From: an uncultured Caulobacteraceae bacterium
GTDB lineage: Bacteria > Pseudomonadota > Alphaproteobacteria > Caulobacterales > Caulobacteraceae
Direction of reading: 5' to 3'
Length of the DNA stretch: 64,000 nt
Assembly (NCBI GenBank): GCA_937138625.1
Contig: CAKZPF010000003.1
Location: 310,001-374,000 of the forward strand
The notes beneath the pieces are model-generated. The model worked only from the letters and a program-made list of their open reading frames with translations, made no database searches and was not told where the DNA came from. Numbering within the stretch: position 1 is the stretch's first letter; each line of letters starts with the position of its first letter. This document shows positions 33,939 through 51,902 of this stretch, in pieces. Made by a program: the position numbers and the translations under genes.

Positions 33939-34009
<71 letters not shown>

Positions 34010-34015
<6 letters not shown>

Positions 34016-34211
34016 TTTTATTCCGCGAGTTCCTTTTTGTTTAAGTTGACGGGTTTTGAGGGCAAAACCCTACCCGCGCCATTTCATGGCTCTCGTTCCC
34101 TTTTTTAGAATTGACGGGTTTTCGAGAAAAACCCTATGCGCGCCATTTCATTCCGGGAGTTCCTTCTATTTTTTTGAACGGGTTTTGAGGGCAAAACCCT
34201 ATCGCGCGCCA
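34010..34211 (+). repeat. Tandem array of about 65-bp units carrying the tRNA-Asp 3' tail
   Basis: GCGCCA, the terminus of tRNA-Asp, occurs at 34010, 34076, 34140 and 34206, so three units of 66, 64 and 66 bp are delimited. Each unit then has ATTT(C/T)AT..., a GAGTTCC or similar box, a run of T, and a GGGTTTT / AAAACCC hairpin (34051-34070, 34116-34134, 34180-34199). Units 1 and 3 have identical hairpins; the middle one has a changed loop. The array occupies the space up to the end of the AbgT gene and encodes no protein. Confidence 0.85.
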
Positions 34212-38504: not shown

Positions 38505-38597
38505 GGAGAGGTGGCCGAGTGGCTGAAGGCGCTCCCCTGCTAAGGGAGTAAGGGGTGAAGAGCCCCTTCGAGGGTTCGAATCCCTCTCTCTCCGCCA
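38505..38597 (+). tRNA. tRNA-Ser(GCT), island integration site
   Basis: A 93-nt class II tRNA with encoded CCA. Acceptor GGAGAGG pairs with TCTCTCC, the D-arm is GGCCGAGTGGCTGAAGGC, the anticodon loop CTGCTAA presents GCT (serine), the long variable arm is AGGGGTGAAGAGCCCCTT, and the T-arm is GAGGGTTCGAATCCCTC. Its 3' end is the left attachment site of the island. No terminator follows it here; a terminator that fits stands behind the right repeat at 51489. Confidence 0.97.
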
Positions 38598-38598
38598 C
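38579..38598 (+). other. attL core (tRNA-Ser 3' end)
   Basis: The 20-bp sequence aatccctctctctccgccac covers the T-stem, acceptor stem and CCA of tRNA-Ser plus one base. It is matched exactly at 51638-51657 and, over 19 bp, at 51462-51480. Confidence 0.85.
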
Positions 38599-38702
38599 TT
38601 TCTGAATAATCCTTATTTTATCAACCGGCTAAGGCATTTGACGGGGAATGCGTCCCTAGGGTGTTCCCAAAACCTGTTCCAAACTCTGCACGGGGGCGCG
38701 CT

Positions 38703-40412
38703 ATGACCGCCCATCGTTTGCGCTATCTATCTCGGCGGGGTCATATCTTTCAACTGCGACTGCCGATTCCCAAAGATTTGCAAGTTCGGTACGGGCGAAA
38801 GGAACTACGCTGGTCCTTACAAACCGATGATCGCGACATCGCCAGACAGAGGGCACTAAAAGCAACCCTTGACTTTGAAGGGTTATGCAGGTGCATTCGG
38901 CATATGAACGCCTTGACGACTGATGATATTAAAAAACTGGTACAGCAATTCTACGCAAGACTTGTCCATGAGCACCAGCCGATTGAGGCTGTCCACCCTG
39001 ACGACTTAGATGCCTTGTTTTACAGCCAAAAGGGAATCGTTGAAGACGTGATCATAGGCCTTCGCGGCCAAATTACATGCAAGAACTACGAAGACAGTGT
39101 GCATACAGATGCCAAGCGTGCATTAGAAACCGCAAGCCTGTCGAGAGAAGACCTCAGCTCTTCTCACTATCAGCAGCTGCTGGAAGGTGTTTGTCGCGCA
39201 CGAATTGAATATGCAAAATATGGCTTGTCGTATATGAATAGCGCCCTTGATGCATACACGCCAGAAGACCCTGTTTTCCGTACCGTGCAATTAAGTGCAG
39301 CTAAGAACCCAGTAAAATCAACGCCAGTTTTTGATAACAGCCCAAAGCCTGGCCATTCCATCGCTGATTTGGTGGCGAAATATATCCAAATCTCGTCGGA
39401 GACAGGCACCAGCAGCAACGGCCCCTGGAAACCCAAAACCACACAAGACATCTCAAAAAGTCTCAACTGGTTTGTGCAACTGGTCGGAGCAGATACGGAT
39501 GCCAAAGCCATCACCACGGAACACGTCCGCACCTTCCGGGACCGTATGCTGGCCTTGAAACGAGGTGTTGGTGCCAACACAAATCTTGACCAGGCGATTA
39601 CAAGCAATCCTCAGGATAGGGTTGGGGCCAAAACAGCCAAGAAGCACTTCATGTTCCTGCGTGCCTTTTTAAATTGGCTAGTAGCTGAGGCCTACATTGA
39701 CAGCGCGCCCGGTACAAAGGTGGGCGTTCCAGTACCAAAAAAGGCCAAAAGCGAACAACGGCGCAGCTTTACAAAAGACGAGCTTAATCAGTTTTTTGCA
39801 TCCCCACTGTTCATGGGCTGTCAGTCGGCAAAACGCTTGTACAAGCCAGGCCATGTTCTGGTTCGTAATGACGACTTCTGGGTGCCACTACTACTGTTTT
39901 ACACAGGTATGCGCTTGGCCGAGGCTTTGCAGCTCAGAGTTTCAGATGTTTATACAGATGGTTCTACGCCCCATATTTGTCTCAGTGCGTCTCACATGCA
40001 GCTCAAGACACACTCATCTGAGCGGCTTATTCCCATTCATCCTGACCTGGTGAATTATGGGTTTCTTGATTTTGTGGCCAAGCGCCAGGCAAAAACGAAG
40101 CCTTTATTCTCTGGCATCCAGTCAGCGGGGGATATCAGCAATTATTACTCTAAAAAACTCGGACGCTACCTCAGGAAAATAGGCATCCTTGACCCCAACG
40201 TCACGACCCATAGTTTCCGCCATACGTTCAAAGACACCCTGCGGAATGCCAAGATCCCTGAAGAGGAGCGCAATCAGATTATGGGCCACTCCAATGGCAC
40301 GGTCTCTGAACAGTATGGGGTTGGCGCCAATATAGAAACTTTGGCCGAATATATGGAAAAGGTCGAGTTTGGGTTGTCGGATGCCCTGAAGACGAAGCTA
40401 GCTGAAAAGTAG
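38703..40412 (+). CDS. Tyrosine-type site-specific integrase
   Basis: A 569-residue phage-type integrase. The N-terminus (YLSRRGHIFQLRLPIPKDLQVRYGRKELRWSL) matches the DUF6538 arm-binding domain found in many alphaproteobacterial integrases. The catalytic domain shows Arg in FYTGMRLAEALQL, Lys in QLKTHSSERLIP, HSFRHTFKDTL (HxxR), MGHSNGTVSEQYG (His and nucleophilic Tyr). All residues are intact, so it may be active. The ATG of MTAHRLRYL is chosen (GGGGGCGCG upstream); a Met 14 codons earlier is possible. It lies 105 bp from tRNA-Ser in the same direction. Confidence 0.93.
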   Translation: MTAHRLRYLSRRGHIFQLRLPIPKDLQVRYGRKELRWSLQTDDRDIARQRALKATLDFEGLCRCIRHMNALTTDDIKKLVQQFYARLVHEHQPIEAVHPDDLDALFYSQKGIVEDVIIGLRGQITCKNYEDSVHTDAKRALETASLSREDLSSSHYQQLLEGVCRARIEYAKYGLSYMNSALDAYTPEDPVFRTVQLSAAKNPVKSTPVFDNSPKPGHSIADLVAKYIQISSETGTSSNGPWKPKTTQDISKSLNWFVQLVGADTDAKAITTEHVRTFRDRMLALKRGVGANTNLDQAITSNPQDRVGAKTAKKHFMFLRAFLNWLVAEAYIDSAPGTKVGVPVPKKAKSEQRRSFTKDELNQFFASPLFMGCQSAKRLYKPGHVLVRNDDFWVPLLLFYTGMRLAEALQLRVSDVYTDGSTPHICLSASHMQLKTHSSERLIPIHPDLVNYGFLDFVAKRQAKTKPLFSGIQSAGDISNYYSKKLGRYLRKIGILDPNVTTHSFRHTFKDTLRNAKIPEEERNQIMGHSNGTVSEQYGVGANIETLAEYMEKVEFGLSDALKTKLAEK

Positions 40413-40414
40413 CG

Positions 40415-40618
40415 CTAAGAGACGAGATCAGCCATAGAGCACTCTAGGGCATCTGATAAGCGCTTCAGCACTGTGAGCGTTGGGTTGCGAATGCCGCGCT
40501 CAATACCAGAAACATAAGTCCTATGAAAATCGGCGCGGTCAGCCAGTTCCTCTTGAGACCAGCCTTTTTGCTCTCTGAAATGACGTACATTCGCCCCAAC
40601 ATGTTTGCGGATATTCAT
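40415..40618 (-). CDS. XRE-family transcriptional regulator
   Basis: A 67-residue single-domain helix-turn-helix protein: NVRHFREQKGWSQEELADRADFHRTYVSGIERGIRNPTLTVLKRLSDALE. Such Cro/CI-like proteins usually repress the genes of mobile elements. It is tail-to-tail with the integrase (2 bp between stops) and divergent from the lipoprotein gene. Two identical palindromes in front of its start are good operator candidates. The Met of MNIRKHVG is my start; six codons upstream is an alternative. Confidence 0.88.
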   Translation of the reverse strand: MNIRKHVGANVRHFREQKGWSQEELADRADFHRTYVSGIERGIRNPTLTVLKRLSDALECSMADLVS

Positions 40619-40655
40619 ACCCACATGGCAGCGCAATGCATACGATTGATCTACA

Positions 40656-40666
40656 GACTATGAGTC
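40656..40666. promoter_or_regulatory. Operator candidate 1 of the XRE regulator
   Basis: GACTATGAGTC, a perfect GACT-N3-AGTC palindrome, 38 bp upstream of the XRE gene start. An exact reverse-complement copy lies 52 bp away in the same divergent promoter region. Confidence 0.6.
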
Positions 40667-40707
40667 TCTTTTTCTCTTGACCATTGCTCTTCTCCCATTA
40701 CGATGGT

Positions 40708-40718
40708 GACTCATAGTC
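40708..40718. promoter_or_regulatory. Operator candidate 2 of the XRE regulator
   Basis: GACTCATAGTC, the reverse complement of the first palindrome, 26 bp upstream of the lipoprotein start. The 52-bp spacing is about five helical turns, which suits cooperative repressor binding. Confidence 0.6.
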
Positions 40719-40743
40719 AACAAATCTAGTGATTGGAAAAAGC

Positions 40744-41181
40744 ATGAAACTCCACAGCCTATCCATAAAACGCAAGGCAAAGTCGCTTTTAGGCATAGCT
40801 GCAGCCTTTGCCATTACTGCGTGTGCAAATGTGCCTCCTGAAAGCCTGCCAGCTCATTTTGATTTCGGTGAGCGACCAGCTGATTATGAGCAAAAAATCA
40901 ATGCCCACTTTGAAAGCATCCTCAAGGACTATGATAGCGCCCGTTTCAAATACGGTGAACGCTTTGAAAAAATGCAGTGCCTAACACTTGAGCTTCGCGG
41001 CACCCCCAGAAAGATCAAATATGCGGGCTGGGCGCGTAAAGTTATGGTCAACGCCAAGAACTCTTATGGTGGGTACGGTGGATACAAGCTCTACGTTGTC
41101 CCGTTCAAGGATGGCCAGGTTTGGGCCGTATATGACGAGCGCGACTTCCACTTCAACGGTTGTGAATTTCTGACACGCTGA
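40744..41181 (+). CDS. Small lipoprotein of the island, unknown function
   Basis: A 145-residue protein with a basic N-terminus, a hydrophobic stretch (LLGIAAAFAITAC) and a lipobox (ITAC). The mature region contains YEQKINAHFESILKDYDSARFKYGERFEKMQC and GYGGYKLYVVPFKDGQVWAVYDERDFHFNGCEFLTR, two Cys that could pair, and no domain I can name. The ATG of MKLHSLSI has a GGAAAAA site. It is the first plus-strand gene after the operator pair and is followed 31 bp later by the membrane protein gene. Confidence 0.72.
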   Translation: MKLHSLSIKRKAKSLLGIAAAFAITACANVPPESLPAHFDFGERPADYEQKINAHFESILKDYDSARFKYGERFEKMQCLTLELRGTPRKIKYAGWARKVMVNAKNSYGGYGGYKLYVVPFKDGQVWAVYDERDFHFNGCEFLTR

Positions 41182-41212
41182 GGTGTGAAATCTGAACACC
41201 TCTCCATAACTG

Positions 41213-42262
41213 ATGGATATCATTATGACCCTGGAACATGAGACACAGCCAAAGAATAAGATCTGGAAAATCATAGGCGAGGCCCTTTGTTGGGTGATAT
41301 TTTTTCCAGTTACGATCATGGTGACGTTTGTCGCGTACCCAATGATTGCTGTCTTGATCGCCCTCGGCTTTTTTGCCTTCGCCGTTCTGATATTTCTAAA
41401 AATGATTAGCATCCCTAAATTCACCACATGGCGGCCTCTCGGGCTTGTGGCAACAGCCGTCATGACCCTCAATCTTACGCTGACCCATATTTCAGAAGAG
41501 AAGCTGAAAAAGACAGCACCTCAAGAGTACCTGGCTAAGCTGAAAGTTTCAGACGAGAAGCGATGGTTTTCCGAATTAGAGCAATTGGATCCTGAGGGTT
41601 ACAGAGTTGAGAAGGAACGCAGAGACGCAGCCGAAAAAGCGGCTGAAGCGGAAAGAATACGAGAAGTTGAAGCTGATCGAGAGGCGCAGATTGCTGCCTT
41701 GCTTGAAGCTGAATACGGGACTTTCAGCACCGACCTCAAAAAGGCACATGAGGAAATAAGCGAATTCTCGTTAAGTGGCACCGCATCATTGGATGATATC
41801 CTCAGTAAACTTAGAAAAATTGATAGCTATGTGGAAATTTTAGCAAGGGGGCAGGAGGTGGACCCTACAGAAGAGGAAACCCAGATGCTGAAAGAGATCA
41901 GAGACCAACTAAGTACGGCACAGAGCACCGGGTTCCCAAACTTGCGGGTCACATACGCCAATAATCTAAAGAGACTCCTATGGGTGGGCGACACGTACGT
42001 TTCAACTGGAGGAAAGCGCAGCGACACAATTACACTAAAAAACACCAAATACATTCTGAACGCGAACATTGCAGAAGATTATGACCTTCTTGTCACTCAA
42101 CTTAAGAGATTGCGCTTTAAAAAAGCGATATTTCGCTCTGGCGCAGGTGGGAAATACACGTACTATGATTTGCCGCCACCATTATCCCCCACAGATAAAG
42201 AACTTGTATATTGGGAGGGTCCAATCCCCACACGACTGCAAAGCTATCTGGGTGGGGAATAG
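41213..42262 (+). CDS. Membrane-anchored coiled-coil protein, unknown function
   Basis: A 349-residue protein. Two adjacent N-terminal membrane helices (residues about 18-62: ALCWVIFFPVTIMVTFVAYPMIAVLIALGFFAFAVLIFL) and a third weaker one (LGLVATAVMTLNLTLTHI) are followed by a charged helical region (EKERRDAAEKAAEAERIREVEADREAQIAALLEAEY) likely to be a coiled coil. The C-terminal 130 residues end in KYTYYDLPPPLSPTDKELVYWEG. I do not recognise a family. Position 31 bp after a lipoprotein gene suggests a joint envelope function. Composition is clearly AT-richer than the chromosome outside the island. Confidence 0.7.
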   Translation: MDIIMTLEHETQPKNKIWKIIGEALCWVIFFPVTIMVTFVAYPMIAVLIALGFFAFAVLIFLKMISIPKFTTWRPLGLVATAVMTLNLTLTHISEEKLKKTAPQEYLAKLKVSDEKRWFSELEQLDPEGYRVEKERRDAAEKAAEAERIREVEADREAQIAALLEAEYGTFSTDLKKAHEEISEFSLSGTASLDDILSKLRKIDSYVEILARGQEVDPTEEETQMLKEIRDQLSTAQSTGFPNLRVTYANNLKRLLWVGDTYVSTGGKRSDTITLKNTKYILNANIAEDYDLLVTQLKRLRFKKAIFRSGAGGKYTYYDLPPPLSPTDKELVYWEGPIPTRLQSYLGGE

Positions 42263-42374
42263 GTATCAGCAAAAAAATTGTGCCCTAACCATAATTTCTA
42301 TTTGACTCCTGCACGACTCACACTCCTTTGGCAGTACGTGTACCTAACAGTATGGGGTCTTAGGGGGAAACTTT

Positions 42375-43265
42375 ATGAAAACAATATCATATAACGAGGC
42401 ATATAGCCTCACAAAAAGTCGTCCCGAGGCTTTCGTTCTGCAGCATATTTCTCATTGGCAGCCGAAAGCCAAAATTACATTTAATGGCCATACATGGGTT
42501 GTTCGTACAGCAGAAGAATTCATCAAATATGGAGCTACATATTCAGAAGTCACTATCCGTAGAGCAGTCCGGTCACTTGCCAAAAAAGGGTTGCTCATTG
42601 TTAAGCACAAACCACACCCCCTTAAGTCTGGCATAATGAAAGCCTCATGGATCAGAATCGCAGACGGCCATGTTGCAACTAAAGGAGTCAAAACCTTGCC
42701 TTTAAACAGATCAAAAGTTTCGGTTCAAACAGATCAAAAAGTATCGACTATTATACAAGACAATCAACAAGACAATCATCAAGACAATACAAGCCCGCCA
42801 AAAATGGCAGGCGAAAAGATCACCTCCCTGAAAGATTTATCAGCAGAGGAAATCAAGAAAAAATTTAAACCCAAAAAACCGAATTCAGAAAAACCATTAA
42901 ATCCTACAACCCTGTTTGAGTTCATAAGAGCCGTGCAGCATGAATCTCACCCGAACCATCCGTTGGGAGATAAAACCGGAAAAGCATTAGGCCAATGCAA
43001 AACGATCCTGCAACGTCTTCGAGACAATCATAACCTGAGCGATGATCAAATCAGAGAGGTGATCGAAAGTGTGATTTCCGTCTGGGTTTCATTCAAAGAT
43101 CATGTTCAGATCACAACCGCAAAACTGCTACACCCATTTCCGACACTGGATCAGATGACCACTCACTGTTTTCACATGGTCACGTACCACCAAACCAAAT
43201 CCAATACGTCAACAGATGATGAGGGGTATGACCCTGATGATGTCGTTGTGGTTGCGGTTGAGTGA
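42375..43265 (+). CDS. Winged-helix DNA-binding protein, possible replication initiator-like
   Basis: A 296-residue protein. Residues about 35-85 read as a winged helix: TWVVRTAEEFIKYGATYSEVTIRRAVRSLAKKGLLIVKHKP. A Gln/Asn-rich linker (DNQQDNHQDN) and a Lys-rich stretch lead to a C-terminal helical domain (KTGKALGQCKTILQRLRDNHNLSDDQIREVIESVISVW). The order wHTH - linker - helical domain recalls DnaD/replication-initiation proteins of plasmids and phages, but I cannot claim homology. Strong site TAGGGGG before the ATG. It heads a three-gene run with the next two ORFs. Confidence 0.7.
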   Translation: MKTISYNEAYSLTKSRPEAFVLQHISHWQPKAKITFNGHTWVVRTAEEFIKYGATYSEVTIRRAVRSLAKKGLLIVKHKPHPLKSGIMKASWIRIADGHVATKGVKTLPLNRSKVSVQTDQKVSTIIQDNQQDNHQDNTSPPKMAGEKITSLKDLSAEEIKKKFKPKKPNSEKPLNPTTLFEFIRAVQHESHPNHPLGDKTGKALGQCKTILQRLRDNHNLSDDQIREVIESVISVWVSFKDHVQITTAKLLHPFPTLDQMTTHCFHMVTYHQTKSNTSTDDEGYDPDDVVVVAVE

Positions 43266-43276
43266 GTAGGTAGGTT

Positions 43277-43465
43277 ATGCGCCCAGAATCATTACCCGGA
43301 CCTTGGTGGGATACAGGGGTATTAGACCCAGCCGTACACACCAAACTCATTGTAAACCGCATGGCTATAGGGCGCAGGTCTGGCCTCGGAGAGAAGAATT
43401 TAAAACCAATATGGACCCCGCTACCTGGTGAAGCCGCAGAAGAAATATCTCGCACCGCATTGTAA
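43277..43465 (+). CDS. Small hypothetical protein in the island
   Basis: A 62-residue ORF in the gap between two clear genes, 11 bp after the winged-helix gene, with a purine-rich TAGGTAGG ahead of its ATG. Sequence is Pro/Gly-rich with no recognised motif (begins MRPESLPGPWWDTG). Plausible because of spacing and ribosome-binding site only. Confidence 0.5.
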   Translation: MRPESLPGPWWDTGVLDPAVHTKLIVNRMAIGRRSGLGEKNLKPIWTPLPGEAAEEISRTAL

Positions 43466-43554
43466 TTCTTCAATATTTACTATTGACCAGACCAGTTATT
43501 CAGCCACGCTTAAGCAGAAGCCCTTGTTCTTCTTCGGTAAATTTAGTGGTTGAA

Positions 43555-44658
43555 ATGTCAAACTGGTTGAATTTTTATAAGATGCAGATATTAGAAGAAA
43601 CGGAAAGATACCAAGATACACGGTGTCCACCGATACAGCTTGATTCATATATCGCGGCCTCACTTCTCCAGAAATCGATCAGGCGGTCCCAGACTGATTG
43701 GGCGCTAGTGGCCGCCCAATATCTCAGCATCTACGACCGCAGCAGGTTATGGCGGCGGCTGATGATCACACTGTTTGAAGATATTGGCCTAACCAATACG
43801 GATTTGGCTTGGCGGTTGTTTGCTACGCGTGATGTGTGCCGGCGGCAACCACACCTTAAAACCTGGCCAGTGATCAGCACACTGGTTGAGATAATGTGCG
43901 GGGCAGAGAAAACTCAAGCTGCCAACCATATTATTCATCTCTGCCTTCACGACCAAAAGTTGATCGAAGTTATGGTCAGTTTATCTGAGCAGCCCTATGA
44001 GCAGGCATGCACGTGGACTTTGACTGAAGATAGACCGCCGACAGACATCGTCGCCGCTCTTTGGATGCTGTCAGGCTTTTCACTGTTGGGGATTACTCCA
44101 CCGATACAGCACCCGGAGGCCGACCCCAAGCGCATTTATGATACCCTAGGCCAAATCATTCCAGACCCTGAAACCCACGAAATCATGATGATGGGGATTC
44201 GCACAGGGGCTAACATCCTGGCTATTTCATCAGCTATAACCGCCATAGAAGCCCGCACAGAGGGGTTGCAGCACAAATCCACACAAGACCACATGCCAAC
44301 AGAAATGCGTGTGTGTGAGCTTCCTTGTTGGGCATTTGATCAATACACACGAGCCGGAAAAGCCGCACTCAGGCGAGCTATAACTGAATGCTCCAATATC
44401 AAAGCTGCCCTGCGCCACATTAACAAAGGCCAACATAACCATTTACGCGCATTATCAAGCACGCATTTTGAATACGAAAGCGGTCTTTTGGCAAAGCGCA
44501 TTCAAACACCTGGCCACCTCAACTTACTCAATCAGGTTCGCACGATTGGCCCGTTTCGTGACGCAGAAACGGCTCTGAAAATTTATGAGGCGATGGATGC
44601 CGATTGGGAGTCATTTCAAGACATACGCGCAGATGAGATCCAAAAGCATTTGGCTTGA
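43555..44658 (+). CDS. Protein resembling the C-terminal region of RarA/MgsA AAA+ ATPases
   Basis: A 367-residue protein without any Walker A or B motif. The segment AASLLQKSIRRSQTDWALVAAQYL...LWRRLMITLFEDIGLTNTDLAWRLF strongly recalls the post-ATPase helical region of RarA (ALHKSIRGSDPDAALYWLARML...RRLVRMASEDIGLADP). The remaining 250 residues are helical, with no known motif. It may therefore bind or mimic RarA at replication forks; this is inference. A TTG 24 codons upstream could be used; I choose the ATG of MSNWLNFYK. Confidence 0.6.
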   Translation: MSNWLNFYKMQILEETERYQDTRCPPIQLDSYIAASLLQKSIRRSQTDWALVAAQYLSIYDRSRLWRRLMITLFEDIGLTNTDLAWRLFATRDVCRRQPHLKTWPVISTLVEIMCGAEKTQAANHIIHLCLHDQKLIEVMVSLSEQPYEQACTWTLTEDRPPTDIVAALWMLSGFSLLGITPPIQHPEADPKRIYDTLGQIIPDPETHEIMMMGIRTGANILAISSAITAIEARTEGLQHKSTQDHMPTEMRVCELPCWAFDQYTRAGKAALRRAITECSNIKAALRHINKGQHNHLRALSSTHFEYESGLLAKRIQTPGHLNLLNQVRTIGPFRDAETALKIYEAMDADWESFQDIRADEIQKHLA

Positions 44659-45012
44659 TCAGTGGATGGCTTGAAGTGATGTTGGCGCGTAAGCATCGAT
44701 ACGTATGATGCTGGCGTGTGGTTTATAATGTGCAGCCTAAAGGACAAAAGTAAGGTCCCTTTGAAACTGGAAAAGCTGTCAATACGTTTTCAGCTCCCCT
44801 TTAGGAAATTAGTCAAGATCTGAAGTTCAGCAAAGGGCGTAAGCTTATGCCCTTCATAGCAGGTTTCTACAAGCAATAGTACCGGAAATCCTTTGGCGGA
44901 CAGCAGCAAAACAAATTGATATAAATTGCTGAACTCGCATCTGTTAGAATGCGGGGTGAGCGAACAAGAAGTGCCCAATGTTTAAGGGGGCCTGAAGGCG
45001 AAAATCCACTTA
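44659..45012. other. Intergenic region of the island
   Basis: About 350 bp between the RarA-C-like gene and the efflux cassette. It holds only a 62-codon minus-strand reading frame at 44790-44978 that I do not accept as a gene. The change of composition on either side suggests a junction between two island modules. Confidence 0.5.
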
Positions 45013-45036
45013 ATGTTTCATTTACGTCCGAAACAT
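45013..45036. promoter_or_regulatory. Inverted repeat upstream of the metal regulator
   Basis: ATGTTTC and GAAACAT, exact 7-bp inverted repeats with a 10-nt spacer, end two bases before the C-tract operator candidate. Could be a second operator or a promoter-proximal hairpin. Confidence 0.45.
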
Positions 45037-45037
45037 A

Positions 45038-45053
45038 CTATCCCCCCGCATAG
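45038..45053. promoter_or_regulatory. Probable CsoR/RcnR-type operator
   Basis: CTAT-CCCCCCGC-ATAG: a C/G tract flanked by inverted AT-rich tetramers, the architecture known for CsoR/RcnR operators. It lies 28 bp upstream of the regulator's start codon, where binding would block transcription of the whole efflux cassette. Confidence 0.65.
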
Positions 45054-45080
45054 GATATAGCCCCACACGAGGTATGAGCT

Positions 45081-45350
45081 TTGAGCACGCACCACACACA
45101 CCCTGATATCGTCAAACGCTTGAAACGGGCGAACGGCCACCTGAATAAGATCATCACGATGATCGAGGAGGAGCGTCCGTGCGTTGAGGTCGCTCAGCAG
45201 ATGCAGGCGGTTTACAGTGCGATAGGCAGTGCCAAGCGCGTCTTCATCGAAGATCATATATCTGGATGCTTGGATGTCGACAGCCTTGCTGATTCCAAAA
45301 CCGCGCGTGAGAGCGTAAAAAGCTTTAAGGAGATTACCAAGTACCTATGA
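45081..45350 (+). CDS. Metal-sensing repressor, CsoR/RcnR family (DUF156)
   Basis: An 89-residue all-helical repressor. The metal-site fingerprint is C34, H59 and C63 (ERPCVEV; IEDHISGC), the Cys-His-Cys spacing of Cu(I)-sensing CsoR and of Ni-sensing InrS, rather than the His-Cys-His-His of RcnR. The N-terminus adds H4, H5 and H7, which resemble the N-terminal His ligands of RcnR/InrS. The start is TTG with GAGGT 7 nt upstream; no in-frame ATG exists nearby. The stop overlaps the next gene (ATGA), so the regulator is translated with the pump. Confidence 0.9.
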   Translation: MSTHHTHPDIVKRLKRANGHLNKIITMIEEERPCVEVAQQMQAVYSAIGSAKRVFIEDHISGCLDVDSLADSKTARESVKSFKEITKYL

Positions 45351-46561
45351 AACGGTTTCTGCTGATACTCCTGCCAGTTTTCTTGTGGTCGCAGCCTTCA
45401 AAGGCAGAGGTGCTAACGTTAGAGCAAGCCCTCAGCCAAGCCATAGACCAAACGCCCGCCATGGCCCATGTGGCCCGAAAGCGGGCCGATAGAGATGCGC
45501 GGGCCTATGAGCTGGATGTACTGCAGAACCCCGAGGTTCAGGTTGATAATACTTTTGGCAATTCATCGGGTGGGGATGGCATCAGTTTAGAGCTGACCCA
45601 GCCATTGCGGATGTCCAATTTCAAAGACCGCCCAGCGCTGGCCGAAGCCGTTCGCCACACGGCATCATTGGAAGAACAATCGGAAATTCTATCGATCCAA
45701 CATGATGTGACGCGTCGCTATCTGGATTTATGGCAACTTCAACAGCACGCCAGGTTCCTTCGTGAAAATCTGGCCTTTGCGAAAGGCACCAATGCCGTTG
45801 TTCGAAAAGCAGCGCTGAGTGGAGAATTAGCCATCAGCGAGTCTTATCTTTTTGATGCGGAAACATTGAAATTTCAGGAAGAGCTAAATGAGCTTGAAGC
45901 TACCATCAGTGCCCAACAGGTTGATCTGATGCAGAAGTTGGGGCTGCAAGCTGAAACCCTGACACTGGCGCACCCACAGGTTCCACAGGTGCCCGATGAC
46001 ATTGAGCCACTGAAAGCGCTGGCCAAAGCGTCACCCAAACAAATCCTGCTGGCCAAGAAACGAGAGGCCGAGCGCCGCTTGTCGGTGGCCAAGTCTGATG
46101 CACGCTTGCCAGAAATCTCGCCACGGTTTCTTTACAATCAAAGCTATAATGGCGGCGGGCAAGATGTCGGTTTTGGTGTACGTTTGACTATACCCTTATG
46201 GAATAAAAATGAGGCTGAAATCAGTCGAGCTAAGGCAGAAAAGCGCTTTGCTGAGACTTCGCTCGCGACCTATGATCGCGTTGGCTATGACAAGATATTG
46301 AGCAGCCAGTATGAAAAAGCCACGGCAGCCATCGCGCGCCTGAAACAATACGAAAACTCTATTTTGCCAGCGTATCAGAAAAGCTATGCCGTAACGCATA
46401 AGATGTTCCGTGGTGGGCAAGCCTCAACCTTGCAATTGTGGCAAGTTCATGAGCGTCTGCACGATGCACAATTGAAAACGTTAGAAATCCATAACGATGC
46501 GTTTGAAGCCATCATGGCGCTTGAAATGTTGCTGGGCCAATCACTTATGGGGTCATCATGA
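45347..46561 (+). CDS. Outer-membrane efflux channel, CzcC/TolC type
   Basis: A 404-residue outer-membrane factor. A signal peptide (MKRFLLILLPVFLWSQPSKA) precedes the first OEP repeat (LTLEQALSQAIDQTPAMAHVARKRADRDARAYELDVLQNPEVQVD) and the second (ASPKQILLAKKREAERRLSVAKSDARLPEISPRFLYNQSY), with long helices and VRLTIPLWNKNEAEI typical of CzcC. It forms the outer conduit for the RND pump encoded two genes later. Start overlaps the regulator; stop overlaps the adaptor gene by 4 bp. Confidence 0.92.
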   Translation: MKRFLLILLPVFLWSQPSKAEVLTLEQALSQAIDQTPAMAHVARKRADRDARAYELDVLQNPEVQVDNTFGNSSGGDGISLELTQPLRMSNFKDRPALAEAVRHTASLEEQSEILSIQHDVTRRYLDLWQLQQHARFLRENLAFAKGTNAVVRKAALSGELAISESYLFDAETLKFQEELNELEATISAQQVDLMQKLGLQAETLTLAHPQVPQVPDDIEPLKALAKASPKQILLAKKREAERRLSVAKSDARLPEISPRFLYNQSYNGGGQDVGFGVRLTIPLWNKNEAEISRAKAEKRFAETSLATYDRVGYDKILSSQYEKATAAIARLKQYENSILPAYQKSYAVTHKMFRGGQASTLQLWQVHERLHDAQLKTLEIHNDAFEAIMALEMLLGQSLMGSS

Positions 46562-47517
46562 AATCACTGTTTTTATCATGCGTTCTGGGCTTACTGGCCT
46601 CTGCGGCCTATGCGGGTGGTGGGCATGACCATGGCGAGGGGCAATTGAGTGGCCAAAATGCCACGTCGTCTTTTACCCTGGAAGAGACCAGTATCCGTAA
46701 CCTGAAAATTGAAACCGTGGTGGCCGATATCAAACCCGTGCGAGAATCCACACGCATGTTGATGCAAATTAAAATGTTGCCTGAAAAGCAAACCGTGATT
46801 TCCCCACGATTCCAGGGCAAGGTTATCAAAATTCACGTCAAACTTGGTGATCGCATTTCCCGTGGTCAGACCCTTGTTACCCTTCAGCCCATCAGTATTG
46901 GCAACCCACCTGTGAACTTGTCCTCACCTGTCAGCGGCGTGTTATCACAGCAACTGGTGACCGTGGGCAGCGCGTTTGACGCAGGTGATACGCTGATGGA
47001 GGTATCAGATCGCAATACGGTACTGGCAAAAGGCATGACCTACGAGTCTGCAGCCCTAACGGATATTCGTGTCGGGCAAGATGTTACGGTTCGGGTCGAC
47101 AGTCTGAAAGGGCGGATATTTAGCGGCACTGTTCAACGGATTGACCCGGCGATTGATGAAAACCAGCGCACCGTTTCTGTGTTTGCAGTGCTCAATAATC
47201 CGGGCGGTGTTTTGATCCCGCATATGCAGGGGCAGATGGATGTTTTCACGGGCGTGGGTGACCCCATGCTGGCTGTCCCAACCCGGGCTGTGCTGGGTAC
47301 TATGGGCCAGCATTTCGTATATGTGCGTGACGGTAATTACTTCGAGAAACGCAATGTGACCTTGGGGGTATTGCGCGGGGGCCAGCGGGAAATCATCGAC
47401 GGTGTATTTCCAGGCGAAAACGTGGTGGTACAGGGTAACTACCAATTGCAATATGTAACCCCAGCTGGTCAGCCTGCGCATGATGCGGCGGGTGGTGATC
47501 ATGGTCACGCGCATTAA
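46558..47517 (+). CDS. Periplasmic adaptor of metal RND efflux, CzcB type
   Basis: A 319-residue membrane-fusion protein. A signal peptide is followed by a His-rich N-terminus (GGGHDHGEG); the lipoyl-like hairpin is split by a short linker (VISPRFQGKVIKIHVKLGDRISRGQTLVTLQ; LSSPVSGVLSQQLVTVGSAFDAGDTLMEVSD), and the beta-barrel (GQDVTVRVDSLKGRIFSGTVQRIDPAIDENQRTVSVFAVL) follows. The C-terminus is again His-rich (GGDHGHAH). The His clusters suggest direct metal binding. It is shorter than CzcB because it lacks the long C-terminal extension. Confidence 0.93.
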   Translation: MKSLFLSCVLGLLASAAYAGGGHDHGEGQLSGQNATSSFTLEETSIRNLKIETVVADIKPVRESTRMLMQIKMLPEKQTVISPRFQGKVIKIHVKLGDRISRGQTLVTLQPISIGNPPVNLSSPVSGVLSQQLVTVGSAFDAGDTLMEVSDRNTVLAKGMTYESAALTDIRVGQDVTVRVDSLKGRIFSGTVQRIDPAIDENQRTVSVFAVLNNPGGVLIPHMQGQMDVFTGVGDPMLAVPTRAVLGTMGQHFVYVRDGNYFEKRNVTLGVLRGGQREIIDGVFPGENVVVQGNYQLQYVTPAGQPAHDAAGGDHGHAH

Positions 47518-47525
47518 GGTGGGCC

Positions 47526-50500
47526 ATGTTTGATCGCATCATAACCTGGTCACTGCAAAACCGCTTGCTGATATTGGCGCTGACGGTGTTGTTGACCGTC
47601 TATGGGGCCATCACAGCCCAAAAGCTTCCGGTGGATGTGTTTCCTGATCTGAACCGGCCAACCGTCACCATACTGTCTGAGGCCCATGGATTGGCCCCGG
47701 AAGAAGTGGAAACCCTGGTCACCTTACCGATTGAAACAGCGATGAATGGAGCGTCTGGTGTGGCGCGGGTGCGCTCAGCATCCAGCATCGGTTTTTCACT
47801 GGTGTGGGTAGAGTTCGACTGGGATGTAGAGACCTACACCGCACGTCAAATTGTATCCGAGAAATTGCAGCAAATTACGGCCACGCTGCCGGATGATGTA
47901 ACCTCGCAGATGGGGCCGATCACCTCGATTATGGGTGAGATTATGTTGTTGGGACTGACCAGCGACAACCAGGCGGTCAATGCGTTGGAGCTTCGATCAA
48001 TCGCCGACTGGGATGTGCGTCAACGCTTGCTAGCGATCCCTGGCGTCTCACAAATCACGGTGATCGGGGGCGAGCAAAAACAATTCCAAGTATTGGTGAA
48101 CCCTGATCGGCTGCGGACCTATGATGTGTCGTTGGCTGACGTGGAGGATGCTCTTGAAAACGCCAATGTCAATTCCACTGGTGGCTTTTTACTAGACCCA
48201 CACCAAGAGCACCTGATCCGCAATCTGGGACGTATTCAAACACTGGATGACCTTGAACAGTCCGTTATTCCAAAATCGGTTAGTCATGAGGCCCCAGCCC
48301 TGACCCTGGCCCAGGTTGCCGATGTGCAGCTGGGTGGCCCCTTGGCCAAACGGGGGGATGCCAGCATCAGCGGGCAGCCGGGTGTGATTTTATCGATCCA
48401 GAAACAACCTGGCGCAGATACGGTTGAGCTGACGGAAAACATCCAGGCCGAGCTGAACTCGATCCGCCGCACTCTGCCAGAAGGCGTGGTCATTCATGAT
48501 GACCTCTTTCGCCAGAGCCTGTTTATCGACCGTGCGATAGATAATATCATCGAGGCCTTGCGCGATGGCTCAATCCTGGTGGCCATTGTGCTGTTTTTGT
48601 TTTTGCTCAATGGCCGCACAACACTGATTACCCTGACGGCCATTCCCCTGTCGCTATTGATCACGGCGCTGGTGTTCAAATGGCTGGGGATGTCCATCAA
48701 CACCATGACTTTGGGCGGGCTTGCGGTAGCCATTGGCGAGTTGGTTGATGACGCGATTGTTGGCGTGGAGAATGTCTATCGACGTCTCAGGGAAAACCGT
48801 GAAAAGGCCAACCCGCGCCCTGCGATGGAGGTGATCCGCAATGCTACCTCGGAAATTCGGAACTCGATTGTGTTCGCCACGGCGGTGGTGGTGCTGGTGT
48901 TCATTCCGCTGTTTGCTATGTCGGGGATCGAGGGACGGATCTTCACACCACTGGGCATTGCCTACATTGTCTCAATCATTGCCTCGTTGTTGGTGTCGCT
49001 GACGGTCACGCCTGTTCTGGCCTATTACCTTCTGCCACGTATGAAGCATTTGAAGGCTGAAAAGGATGGTTGGCTGGTGCGGCACCTCAAAGATATCGAG
49101 GTGCGCGTGTTGCGCTTTTCCTTGCCACACACAGGTGTGATCTTGGGCGTGGTCAGTGCAATTTTTATCGCTGCCATCGCCACCTTGCCTTTTTTGGGAA
49201 AAGAGTTCCTTCCAGAATTTAACGAGGGCAGCGTGACCATCAGCATGGTGACGGCCCCGGGCACGTCGCTTGAGGAGTCAAACCGCCTGGGCAAAATCGC
49301 CGAAGGGTTGCTGCTGGAAATCCCTGAGGTCAGCAAAACCGGTAGGCGCACGGGGCGCGGTGAGCTGGATGAACATGCCATGGGTGTCAATGCGTCCGAG
49401 ATCGAGGTGGAATTGCACGATAAAGGCCGCAGTCGCGAAGCAATCTTGCACGAGATGCGGGAAAAAATGGCAACCCTGCCTGGTGCTGTGATCAACATTG
49501 GCCAGCCCATTTCCCACCGCATTGATCACATGATTTCAGGCGTTCGGGCACAGATCGCCGTCAAGGTGTTTGGGGATGATCTTGGAACCCTGCGCATCAA
49601 GGCAGAAGAGATTCAAGCCGTTATGAACAGCATCCCCGGCGTGGTCGATTTGCAAGTTGAAAAGCAGGTGATGATCCCGCAGCTGCATGTGCGCCTGAAC
49701 CGAGAGCGCGCACAACAATATGGCGTGATGGTTGGTGAGGCTGCGGAACATGCCGAGCTCGCCTTGCAAGGGCGTAAAGTCACGGAAATTATCGATGGGC
49801 GGCGCATCCATGATGTGGTCATGCGCTTTTCTGATGAAGCGCGTGTTGATGCGGCGGCTATTGGTCAGATCCCTGTCAATACATTGCGCGGCAGCCTGGT
49901 GCCACTGGGAACGGTTGCGGATCTTGAAGAAGCCAAGGGTCCCAACATCATCAACCGCGAAAATGTCAGCCGCCGTATCATCATTCAGGCCAATGTGGCC
50001 GAACGTGATTTGGTCAGTGTGGTCGAAGACATTCAGGCCAAAGTGCAAGATCAAGTCAAACTACCAAACGGTTATTTCGTTACCTATGGCGGGCAGTTTG
50101 AATCACAGCAATCGGCTGCCCAGGCTATCCTGCTTTTAAGCTTGATCTCGCTCGTGGGTATGTTTTTGGTGATCTACAGCCACTTCCGCAGCGTCAATCT
50201 GACCCTACAGATTATGTTGGCTATACCCTTGGCGTTGATTGGTGCGGTTGCAGGCGTATGGTTGTCTGGTGGTGTGTTTTCAATTGCCACCATGGTTGGC
50301 TTTATTACCCTTACTGGTATTGCTGCGCGGAATGGAATCTTGATGATTTCCCATTATCTGCACCTGATGCAATACGAAGGCGAGCAGTTTGATTTGAACA
50401 TGCTGATGCGGGGTACGCAAGAACGCCTGGTGCCTGTGTTGATGACCGCGCTTACGGCCATGTTGGCCCTCACCCCACTAATATTGGCAGGTGGCGAGCC

Positions 50501-50651
50501 GGGGAAAGAGCTGTTACACCCAGTAGCAGTGGTGATCTTCTCTGGCCTGTTTTCCAGCACATTGCTGAATTTGGTTGTCACACCGCTGATTTTCTGGCGA
50601 TTTAGCCGCAACACCATCCATGGCTTACTGCCAGGAGCTGTAAACGATTAA
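47526..50651 (+). CDS. Heavy-metal RND efflux pump, CzcA family
   Basis: A 1041-residue proton-driven inner-membrane pump with the usual duplicated layout of twelve helices and two large periplasmic loops. The N-terminus (VFPDLNRPTVTILSEAHGLAPEEVETLVTLPIETAMNGASGVARVRS) is typical of HME-RND proteins. The TM4 proton-relay/selectivity motif is AIGELVDDAIVGVENVYRRL (residues about 402-421) rather than the DFGxxVDGAVVxVEN of CzcA/CnrA or the AIGAMVDAAIVMIEN of CusA; as I recall it fits the less-studied HME5 group. Metal specificity is therefore open; nickel, cobalt, zinc or copper are possible. Confidence 0.94.
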   Translation: MFDRIITWSLQNRLLILALTVLLTVYGAITAQKLPVDVFPDLNRPTVTILSEAHGLAPEEVETLVTLPIETAMNGASGVARVRSASSIGFSLVWVEFDWDVETYTARQIVSEKLQQITATLPDDVTSQMGPITSIMGEIMLLGLTSDNQAVNALELRSIADWDVRQRLLAIPGVSQITVIGGEQKQFQVLVNPDRLRTYDVSLADVEDALENANVNSTGGFLLDPHQEHLIRNLGRIQTLDDLEQSVIPKSVSHEAPALTLAQVADVQLGGPLAKRGDASISGQPGVILSIQKQPGADTVELTENIQAELNSIRRTLPEGVVIHDDLFRQSLFIDRAIDNIIEALRDGSILVAIVLFLFLLNGRTTLITLTAIPLSLLITALVFKWLGMSINTMTLGGLAVAIGELVDDAIVGVENVYRRLRENREKANPRPAMEVIRNATSEIRNSIVFATAVVVLVFIPLFAMSGIEGRIFTPLGIAYIVSIIASLLVSLTVTPVLAYYLLPRMKHLKAEKDGWLVRHLKDIEVRVLRFSLPHTGVILGVVSAIFIAAIATLPFLGKEFLPEFNEGSVTISMVTAPGTSLEESNRLGKIAEGLLLEIPEVSKTGRRTGRGELDEHAMGVNASEIEVELHDKGRSREAILHEMREKMATLPGAVINIGQPISHRIDHMISGVRAQIAVKVFGDDLGTLRIKAEEIQAVMNSIPGVVDLQVEKQVMIPQLHVRLNRERAQQYGVMVGEAAEHAELALQGRKVTEIIDGRRIHDVVMRFSDEARVDAAAIGQIPVNTLRGSLVPLGTVADLEEAKGPNIINRENVSRRIIIQANVAERDLVSVVEDIQAKVQDQVKLPNGYFVTYGGQFESQQSAAQAILLLSLISLVGMFLVIYSHFRSVNLTLQIMLAIPLALIGAVAGVWLSGGVFSIATMVGFITLTGIAARNGILMISHYLHLMQYEGEQFDLNMLMRGTQERLVPVLMTALTAMLALTPLILAGGEPGKELLHPVAVVIFSGLFSSTLLNLVVTPLIFWRFSRNTIHGLLPGAVND

Positions 50652-50672
50652 ATGCGAAACAGGAGATTGAAT

Positions 50673-51284
50673 ATGAAACTGAGCCCTTATTTATCCGCAT
50701 CCTTGCTGGGTGGTTTGTTGGCGTTTAACCTGGTGGCCTGTGATAAACACGACGACGGGACTGATCATCATGCGGCAGATGAAGCGCATGAGCATGGCGC
50801 GGATACACATGACCATCACGATGCAGCGCCAGCGCACAAGGATCACGAGGGCGAGGGCGAGCACGAAGATGACCATGGCCATCAGCATGCAGACGAAGCG
50901 GAAAGTCACGCCCATGACCATCATACGCCAACCACGCCTGAGTTCGAGCATAAGGATTATGGCTCAACCGCCAAAGCCTGGGATACCTTAACGGCGTCTG
51001 TAAATGCGGCAGAAACAGCCGTAGGCGAGAATAAGTTTGATGCTATTCACGCTATCTATCCAGATATGGCCGCATCAGCGCATTACCTTTTGGATAACAG
51101 CAAGCTTGATGACGAGGCCAAGCAAGTGCGCCTGAAAGCTGCCTTGGCGCAGCTAACCAAGGCGATTGAAGCTTTCCATGAATATACGCATTCCGGTGAT
51201 GACTATGCCACCGAGGCCAACCGCGAACTTAAGAAAATCAAAGGCGCCCTAAAACAGATTGAGGTATATCAATTTTCAGGATGA
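50673..51284 (+). CDS. Histidine-rich lipoprotein of the metal-efflux cassette
   Basis: A 203-residue lipoprotein (lipobox NLVAC) whose residues about 25-90 consist mostly of His, Asp and Glu in HDH/HEH-type clusters, a flexible metal-binding region. The C-terminal half (YGSTAKAWDTLTASVNAAETAVGENKFDAIHAIYPDMAASAHYL) is helical, ending in KGALKQIEVYQFSG, and resembles the helical part of small periplasmic metal chaperones. An AGGAGA site precedes the ATG. Probably collects metal for the pump. It is the last cassette gene, followed by a terminator. Confidence 0.85.
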   Translation: MKLSPYLSASLLGGLLAFNLVACDKHDDGTDHHAADEAHEHGADTHDHHDAAPAHKDHEGEGEHEDDHGHQHADEAESHAHDHHTPTTPEFEHKDYGSTAKAWDTLTASVNAAETAVGENKFDAIHAIYPDMAASAHYLLDNSKLDDEAKQVRLKAALAQLTKAIEAFHEYTHSGDDYATEANRELKKIKGALKQIEVYQFSG

Positions 51285-51316
51285 CGCAGGCGCTTATAAG
51301 TATAGCAAAAGGTCAG

Positions 51317-51342
51317 AGGGAGGGTCTCAACCTGCCCTTTTT
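51317..51342 (+). terminator. Terminator of the efflux operon
   Basis: AGGGAGGGT and ACCTGCCCT form an imperfect stem with a 4-nt loop, followed by TTTTT. It lies 33 bp after the His-rich lipoprotein gene. Confidence 0.7.
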
Positions 51343-51461
51343 CCTCTTTGAACCCATTTTCTACCCAAAAGCTGTTCCAATTTCTCTTGCACTCTCTGCT
51401 ATCCACTCATAAGATAACTATAATATCAATAACTTATGCGGTGCGCTGCTATGGTCTTCCC

Positions 51462-51480
51462 ATCCCTCTCTCTCCGCCAC
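51462..51480 (+). other. attR core of the island
   Basis: A 19-bp exact copy of the tRNA-Ser 3' end (atccctctctctccgccac). Directly behind it is an intrinsic terminator of the kind expected after a tRNA, so this repeat is best read as the right junction, with the original tRNA downstream sequence continuing after it. Confidence 0.8.
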
Positions 51481-51488
51481 ATAAAAAC

Positions 51489-51511
51489 GCCCCCTTCATG
51501 GGGGCTTTTTT
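51489..51511 (+). terminator. Displaced native terminator of tRNA-Ser
   Basis: GCCCCC, a 5-nt loop, GGGGGC and six T residues, starting 9 bp after the attR repeat. No gene directly precedes it here; its place relative to the repeat matches a tRNA terminator, and tRNA-Ser at 38505 now lacks one. Confidence 0.75.
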
Positions 51512-51637
51512 GTGGCCGTGGGGTTCGAACCCGAGAGTAGGGTTCGACCACAAGCCATTCCGCATTGCGGCGCGCGCGTGCCCGCGCCGCTGAATTCAAA
51601 AATATATGGCGCAGAGGAGGTGGAGCGAAGCGACGCC

Positions 51638-51657
51638 AATCCCTCTCTCTCCGCCAC
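51638..51657 (+). other. Third copy of the tRNA-Ser 3' end
   Basis: The 20-bp sequence aatccctctctctccgccac again, identical to 38579-38598. It encloses, with attR, a 177-bp segment including the terminator. It may be a scar of an earlier integration or a second usable attachment site. Confidence 0.75.
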
Positions 51658-51902
51658 CACTGCTAAACTCCCGAAGGGAGTTAAGTGGGGGTGGAAGAGA
51701 ATGGTGGACGAACCCTTTTCGACAACAAGCAGCTTTGCTGCGCCGTTGAGGCGAGCCCCGCGAGCCCATCCCTGTCTGACACCCCAAACACCCCACCCCC
51801 ATGTGGCCCCGAGATTGCACGCTCGGCTTAAGAAGAAATCCACTTGTTTTTGCTAGGGTTCAGGAAACCTGTGGGCTGCGGCCTACACAGAAAAAACAAC
51901 AT

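Follow-up and report, generated by a model that had tools for sequence, protein, structure and literature searches.

A tandem array that repeats the 3' end of tRNA-Asp, and tail copies at other tRNA genes, in a Caulobacteraceae genome

Directly behind the tRNA-Asp gene of this uncultured Caulobacteraceae bacterium the end of the tRNA is repeated at regular intervals, which raises the question of what such an array is and how it came about. We analyzed the window around it, meaning the whole 64-kb stretch of DNA, together with the rest of the genome and related genomes. The array comprises three units of 64-66 bp located 3' of tRNA-Asp, and each unit has a T-run (5, 6 and 7 T in units 1, 2 and 3), a GGGTTTT/AAAACCC hairpin and a terminal CGCGCCA:

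33939-34015, + strand: tRNA-Asp(gtc), called by ARAGORN, with CCA encoded; the gene closes with seven bases that form the first CGCGCCA
34016-34081, + strand: unit 1, with the trailer, an inverted copy CGCGAGT (34024-34030), the T-run (34034-34038), the hairpin (34051-34070) and a tail copy (34075-34081)
34082-34145, + strand: unit 2, with the T-run (34101-34106), the hairpin with a different loop (34116-34134) and a tail copy (34139-34145)
34146-34211, + strand: unit 3, with the T-run (34169-34175), the hairpin (34180-34199) and a tail copy (34205-34211)

CGCGCCA starts at 34009, 34075, 34139 and 34205, and the hairpin arms start at 34051, 34116 and 34180 (GGGTTTT) and at 34064, 34128 and 34193 (AAAACCC); from one start to the next, the tail-led block advances by 66 and then 64, and the hairpin block by 64 and then 65. 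Among the seven rows returned by Tandem Repeats Finder, 34009-34211 was the top tandem repeat of the window (score 192, period 64, 3.1 copies), while the runner-up scored 72. Coordinates, spacing and repeat score thus confirm the array that the first-pass annotation had described from the sequence, and its middle unit indeed keeps the hairpin with an altered loop (GAGGGC in units 1 and 3, another sequence in unit 2). The same annotation had counted three units led by the tail; there are four tail copies, the first of which is the end of tRNA-Asp itself. The units have drifted from one another, with identities to unit 1 of 71 and 85% for the tail-led block and 67 and 100% for the hairpin block. 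ARAGORN called a single tRNA-Asp and no complete tRNA within the units, so this is not a tandem tRNA gene cluster. The units, which span about 0.2 kb, contain no ORF of at least 80 aa, and one antisense ORF ends at 34016.

The tail copies behind tRNA-Asp are short, with 7 nt exact in each and 9, 8 and 8 of the last 10 positions matching by direct reading. CGCGCCA occurs 23 times across the whole window, and the tail alone was not significant in a 20-nt test (best 12/20, p about 0.53). Hence, it is the regular spacing, not the tail by itself, that places the array beyond chance. The exact hairpin pattern ACGGGTTTTN{3,8}AAAACCCTA was present in one of 398 genomes of the order, all comparison genomes being from outside the genus of the source genome, and its sole three matches were the three units of the array. 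Allowing 3 mismatches, the pattern was not enriched in the own genome (5 matches versus 4 for the reversed control), and its single match in viral contigs, in a 13-kb stretch without a tRNA, was judged to be due to chance. In an Rfam search around the array the tRNA alone passed its gathering score, and tRNA-Asp plus array folded no better than dinucleotide shuffles (z -0.91).

The plan of the array recurs at many other tRNA genes of the genome. When each tRNA was compared with its own 400 nt downstream at a score of at least 11, 11 of the 39 tRNA genes had their own 3' end (16-43 nt) copied there: Lys, Thr-GGT, Arg-TCT, Thr-CGT, Val-TAC, Val-GAC, Val-CAC, Arg-CCT, Tyr, Phe and Ser-TGA. Each of these tRNAs ranked first of 39 for its flank, and ten scored at least 17; the 99th percentile of the scores with other tRNAs was 11.5, and the lowest of the 11, Val-GAC (11.0), lies just below it. 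tRNA-Asp falls outside the 11 in this own-flank test, and the case for its array therefore rests on spacing. Ten of the 11 tail copies start in or at the edge of the T-loop; the Thr-GGT copy starts in the anticodon region and lacks CCA. The cognate tails are exact over 18-21 nt at Lys, Phe, Tyr, Arg-TCT and Ser-TGA, and at Asp and Val-TAC trailer sequence is repeated together with the tail. Own 5' ends are copied upstream of three tRNAs, namely Gly-TCC (31 nt, imperfect), Pro-GGG (41 nt, exact) and Ser-GGA (17 nt, exact and repeated). In a search with tRNA halves at a threshold of 13, 3' ends matched downstream in ten cases and 5' ends upstream in three, all in tRNA orientation; four further matches were inverted, and one, located upstream of tRNA-Leu(taa), was off-pattern (an internal stretch, score 13.5).

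The tail copies are in excess in this genome. In a stricter test, which took the final 36 nt of each tRNA and set the threshold at 13, 10/39 tRNAs were positive, compared with 0/41, 1/41 and 0/19 in three relatives (Fisher p about 1e-5), the 19 tRNAs tested in the last relative, G040, coming from 16 loci while its search listed 41 tRNAs. The same test at the same threshold gave 2/45 in a mixed set of other loci, both of them complete second tRNA-Asp genes. At the looser threshold of 11 the relatives too had a few matches, mostly low-ranking because a different complete tRNA lay in the flank. A relative (G016, L187) has a perfect 46-nt copy of the 3' part of tRNA-Gly(gcc), seven bases downstream of the gene and starting near the anticodon loop.

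The first-pass annotation had named an absence of conserved unit structure in relatives as a result that would speak against its reading. This structure was not seen behind tRNA-Asp in the 29 relatives examined, and its recurrence is among other tRNAs of the own genome. An extra CGCGCCA occurred within 400 nt of tRNA-Asp in 4/29 relatives; in two (L019, L023) it is part of a complete second tRNA-Asp gene, and in the other two (one copy in L015, two in L018) it is a stray match. Such full tandem tRNA-Asp genes fit a functionless turnover, in which tRNA ends are duplicated in tandem or by fold-back (template-switch) copying, or tandem tRNA genes decay. Tandem duplication also predicts that the trailer is repeated with the tail, as at Asp and Val-TAC, fold-back copying would yield inverted copies of the tail, and the drift between the Asp units is of the kind expected. 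Turnover of this sort leaves unexplained the excess over the three relatives, the bodies common to different tRNAs and the compensatory stem changes described below, and it seems quite improbable to us. Decay of full tandem tRNA genes as the sole cause was set back because the bodies are shared across tRNAs.

We compared the bodies of the units, that is the sequence between trailer and tail copy, using unit boundaries set by hand. Body groups common to different tRNAs were Asp and Val; Phe, Lys, Thr-CGT and Arg-CCT; Tyr, Arg-TCT and Arg-ACG; and three Ser loci. Measured against 40 mononucleotide shuffles, the similarity z was 22 for Phe and the second Arg-CCT unit, 18 for Phe and Thr-CGT, 10 for Arg-TCT and Tyr, and 11.9 and 8.5 for Asp unit 3 with Val-GAC and Val-CAC, respectively, the last two values being open to inflation by T-rich stretches. 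In 276 control pairs taken behind tRNAs without units, the 99th percentile score was 16.9 and the maximum 29.5. The Asp-Val bodies scored 14-20, with two pairs above the control 99th percentile and none above the control maximum; the link between Asp and Val is therefore just moderately over background, and its z values are to be read accordingly. In the Phe/Arg/Lys/Thr group the outer stem reads CCCCAC/GTGGGG, CCCCAT/ATGGGG or CCCCGC/GCGGGG, with pairing kept in 5/5 and two double changes, and in the Ser units the first hairpin is altered on both sides too.

Some units also carry an inverted copy of the 3' end of their own tRNA. It ranked first of 38 in 5/20 units (Tyr, Arg-TCT, Val-TAC, the first unit of Ser-CGA and Asp unit 1), all of them imperfect copies, and did not in the other 15/20; over the 20 units the cognate copy had a mean rank of 10.1, compared with 19.5 expected. 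Two tRNA-Met genes go under a single name, which is why the control comprised 38 tRNA names. Upstream of tRNA-Ser(gga) (contig C9, L067 positions 400-894), the first 17 tRNA bases are tandemly repeated, and after each of the two copies come a hairpin body and an inverted copy of the D-arm, the mirror image of the 3' units. Upstream of tRNA-Pro(ggg) (L061), the exact copy of the first 41 tRNA bases is accompanied by a duplicated promoter-like region and a shared GC-rich hairpin.

Bodies that resemble one another at different tRNAs, each with an exact cognate tail of 18-21 nt, could be left by small mobile palindromic elements that insert behind tRNA genes and duplicate a target of about 18-21 bp, the tRNA tail. 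A search of the own genome with the Tyr and Phe units would agree with this, as 8 of the 9 matches were at tRNAs and one was a stray 16-nt match. The bodies differ greatly between units, however, no transposase or end sequence was recognized, the terminator-like hairpin beside the tRNA would fall within the supposed element, and the 5' units with their copies of 17-41 nt misfit a single duplication length. We consider insertion of such elements very improbable.

The first-pass annotation had also stated that no integrase is nearby. This is incorrect, as a DUF6538/Phage_integrase gene lies in an island at tRNA-Ser(gct), a locus 4.4 kb from the Asp array, and the island abuts two tail units:

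38505-38597, + strand: tRNA-Ser(gct), carrier of a set of tail units now split off by the island
38598-51479, + strand: genomic island of about 12.9 kb at tRNA-Ser(gct)
38661-40412: DUF6538/Phage_integrase gene (tyrosine integrase), which opens the island
about 45347-50651: efflux genes of the island (outer membrane/HlyD/AcrB set)
51460-51479: displaced tail of tRNA-Ser(gct), attR-like, 18/20, at the island end
51480-51656, + strand: tail unit of tRNA-Ser(gct), with a terminator-like hairpin, an inverted T-arm, the body and a tail copy (51637-51656, 19/20)
51657-51783, + strand: second tail unit of tRNA-Ser(gct), with a degenerate tail (51768-51783) and a body homologous to the units of tRNA-Ser(tga) and tRNA-Ser(cga)

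Since the tail at the island end directly precedes two units, the island seems to have been inserted between tRNA-Ser(gct) and older units. Tails of this kind can hence occupy an attachment site, which does not establish that the units originated by integration; and as the island is at tRNA-Ser(gct) and not at tRNA-Asp, it does not demonstrate repeated integration at tRNA-Asp. In 390 genomes of the family (two candidates scored per genome, a depth at which weak relatives could be missed), the Ser units had two 37-nt matches beyond the own genome (E about 3e-5), and the Ser body pattern had no match in viral contigs. A further integrase gene lies directly 3' of tRNA-Gly(gcc) in the own genome (contig C6 near 74449, L265).

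The main alternative to a trailer module, which we regard as somewhat unlikely, is that the units are attachment-site scars or minimal non-autonomous integrative elements: recombination by an integrase in the T-loop or the anticodon loop would restore the tRNA gene and displace its old end, and repeated rounds of integration and loss would leave tandem attR-like units. The island at tRNA-Ser(gct), ending in such a tail right before two units, speaks for this, and its junction CCCATCC resembles the junctions of the Tyr, Arg-TCT and Ser-TGA units, although the CCC match is just 3 nt and the Asp tails share just 7-10 nt. The breakpoints agree as well, in or at the edge of the T-loop in 10/11 tail copies and in the anticodon region at Thr-GGT. 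According to the Islander description (PMC4383910), displaced tRNA fragments must keep the correct side and orientation, with a lower interval limit of 2 kb. The 11 tails downstream and three 5' fragments upstream, all in tRNA orientation, are placed as these filters demand, yet tandem duplication predicts side and orientation equally, and there is the one off-pattern match at tRNA-Leu(taa). A cognate fragment on the right side and in the right orientation was thus found genome-wide, the Asp tails being too short for this test, while an integrase between tRNA and fragment with an interval above 2 kb was found solely at the Ser(gct) island and not at Asp.

The units resemble the tRNA-gene fragments left by islands (PMC4383910, PMC9897764) in being cognate, on the correct side and in the correct orientation, with breakpoints in the T-loop or anticodon; they differ in having no integrase or cargo between tRNA and fragment and in lying far under the 2-kb minimum of Islander. 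The ssrA islands of Dehalococcoides have tandem 20-bp tails with a T-loop breakpoint (PMC3146451). These are likewise tandem 3'-end copies of a tRNA-like gene with a conserved stretch upstream of the repeat, and they add to the case for scars. The islands that the ssrA repeats delimit carry genes, including an integrase compared to CcrB, and occur at a single gene (PMC3146451), whereas the units here are about 60-200 bp, contain no recognized gene and occur at many genes. Scars would also leave the inverted copies and compensatory stem changes unexplained, and similar bodies with different cognate tails are hard to obtain in this way, as a T-loop crossover between different tRNAs would give a chimaeric tRNA. 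Moreover, the integrase at tRNA-Gly(gcc) had no second tail within 40 kb (best 15/20).

What, then, might the Asp units do behind their tRNA? In unit 1 the inverted copy CGCGAGT pairs with ACTCGCG of the tRNA across an 11-nt loop, which forms a 7-bp inverted repeat followed by TCCTTTTTG. Among relatives, tail-overlapping inverted repeats of 7-12 bp were found at 4/31 tRNA-Asp genes, compared with 0.2 expected, and one of the four has five T after five bases. These data suggest that in the tRNA-Asp trailer the tail at times serves a second time, as one arm of a stem, perhaps in termination. Such repeats of at least 7 bp are not general, as they occurred at 1/39 own tRNAs (Asp itself; 0.4 expected) and at 0/41, 0/41 and 0/19 tRNAs of three relatives. 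The consensus terminator scan gave no + strand terminator at tRNA-Asp, the 11-nt loop of the 7-bp repeat exceeding the limits of the scan. Units 2 and 3 would be poor terminators because the inverted copy is weak there (ranks 7 and 10 of 38). At the tRNA-Asp loci L018 and L029 of relatives, perfect inverted repeats of 10 and 12 bp take in the tRNA end with CCA in their 5' arm and have T-rich sequence 3' of them; they look like tail-overlapping terminators. When tRNA-Asp is folded in silico together with unit 1, the distal tail copy is the predicted partner of the 5' acceptor strand, and the predicted fold of the whole array is unlike this one.

The RtT repeats of E. coli are released as RNA from the tyrT transcript. 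To our knowledge, tail repeats of this plan are known solely from one E. coli tRNA cluster; here they are found at more than a quarter of the tRNAs. A likeness to tyrT had been proposed in the first-pass annotation, and it holds for the architecture; the roles it suggested (a source of small RNAs, decoys for tRNA 3' processing) and its idea of repeated integration are hypotheses. In E. coli K-12 the tyrT tail recurs at +156 and +453 from the tyrT end (19/20 each, with the second tRNA's own tail set aside), and the inverted tRNA-Tyr 3' end is present in both units tested (18.6 versus a maximum of 13.0 and 17.0 versus a maximum of 16.5 for 38 other tRNAs). As in RtT of tyrT/tyrV (RF00391; rttR in MG1655), our units lie behind a tRNA and close with a tail copy begun in the T-loop region. 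RtT units also hold the cognate tRNA 3' end in inverted form, then hairpin bodies; here the inverted cognate end ranked first in 5/20 units. A position downstream of a tRNA and an end in a copy of that tRNA's tail are found here, for Asp with just 7-10 nt. The Asp units are also shorter than those of RtT (64-66 bp compared with 175-178 bp). The likeness does not extend to the Rfam RtT model. This model gave three matches at the E. coli locus. In the own genome it gave none at E 0.1, a search run under stricter filters in which 25 of the 65 candidates were scored, none around the Asp array at E 5 and none at E 0.5 in 13 own tRNA/unit loci. The units thus have the same plan, but these searches do not place them in the RtT family. 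In a general Rfam search at the 13 loci only tRNAs passed; a suhB/mmgR-like match at L047 was just sub-threshold (39.7 of 41 bits) and lies away from the unit.

Our favored explanation, to which we give a probability of about 0.4, is that the Asp array is an RtT-like duplicated tRNA-end module in the trailer of tRNA-Asp that was amplified in tandem and works like RtT, and that it belongs with similar modules across the genome, each made from the tRNA that it accompanies. The module would consist of the tail copy, a short trailer with a partial inverted tail copy and a T-run, and a T-arm-like hairpin, derived from the tRNA-Asp 3' end. The units may have formed by rearrangements that duplicated sequence and had their breakpoints in the T-loop or the acceptor; they would then sit in the tRNA-Asp trailer. 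Tail, inverted copy and T-run could together make a weak terminator in which the 3' strand of the tRNA itself is used a second time, and cleavage at every CCA during tRNA 3' maturation could produce RNAs of about 64-66 nt. A precedent for a role of the trailer is 3'ETS-leuZ, a functional RNA that is cut from a tRNA trailer and sponges sRNAs; the excerpt of the review concerned (PMC8166272) describes no tail copy or repeat for it, unlike the Asp array.

We count in favor of a trailer module the own-tail scores at 11/39 tRNAs, the shared bodies, the inverted copies here and in E. coli and the compensatory changes, along with the 7-bp tail inverted repeat at Asp, the repeats at 4/31 relatives' tRNA-Asp genes and the predicted pairing of the acceptor with the distal tail. 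Against it we count the lack of a match to the Rfam RtT model, the shuffle-level fold, the differing fold of the longer sequence, the 15/20 units whose inverted copy does not rank first, the Asp-Val scores below the control maximum and the restriction of tail-overlapping repeats. Further points against it are the loss of CCA at Thr-GGT, the CCA predicted to be mostly paired in 5/11 units, and the strong terminator-like hairpin with T-run behind which the Lys, Tyr, Phe and Arg-ACG units sit; the last of these argues against transcription from the tRNA promoter at these four.

A broader idea, which we hold to be unlikely, is that a single general plan for tRNA-targeting elements, with an inverted tRNA 3' end, a hairpin body set into the T-loop and a direct CCA tail, underlies both E. 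coli RtT and the units of this genome. Such an element could colonize many tRNA genes of a genome, would capture the tail of its host tRNA and be mirrored at some 5' ends, and would fold with the tRNA such that the 5' acceptor strand can choose the proximal or the distal tail. E. coli RtT, an old oddity, may then belong to a broader type of element. No description of a genome-wide set of such tail units was found in a literature search that lay mostly outside subscription journals. With over a quarter of its tRNA genes carrying cognate tail units, this genome offers many replicates for the question of origin (integrase, tandem or fold-back copying) and for asking whether the units shape tRNA 3' maturation or termination. 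It also serves as a warning that short arrays of tRNA fragments are not always island scars.

A run of 14 bases, GGAGCGAAGCGACG, is identical in the Ser-GCT unit (window positions 51622-51642) and the E. coli tyrT unit (L270), and in both it lies some three bases ahead of the tail copy (z 4.7 for this stretch). Another dispersed repeat family, with members like TTCACTCGCGGCA..GCCTCCACGGGGGCGGC, is located behind several tRNA genes of the own genome (for example at L037, L041, L051 and L074).
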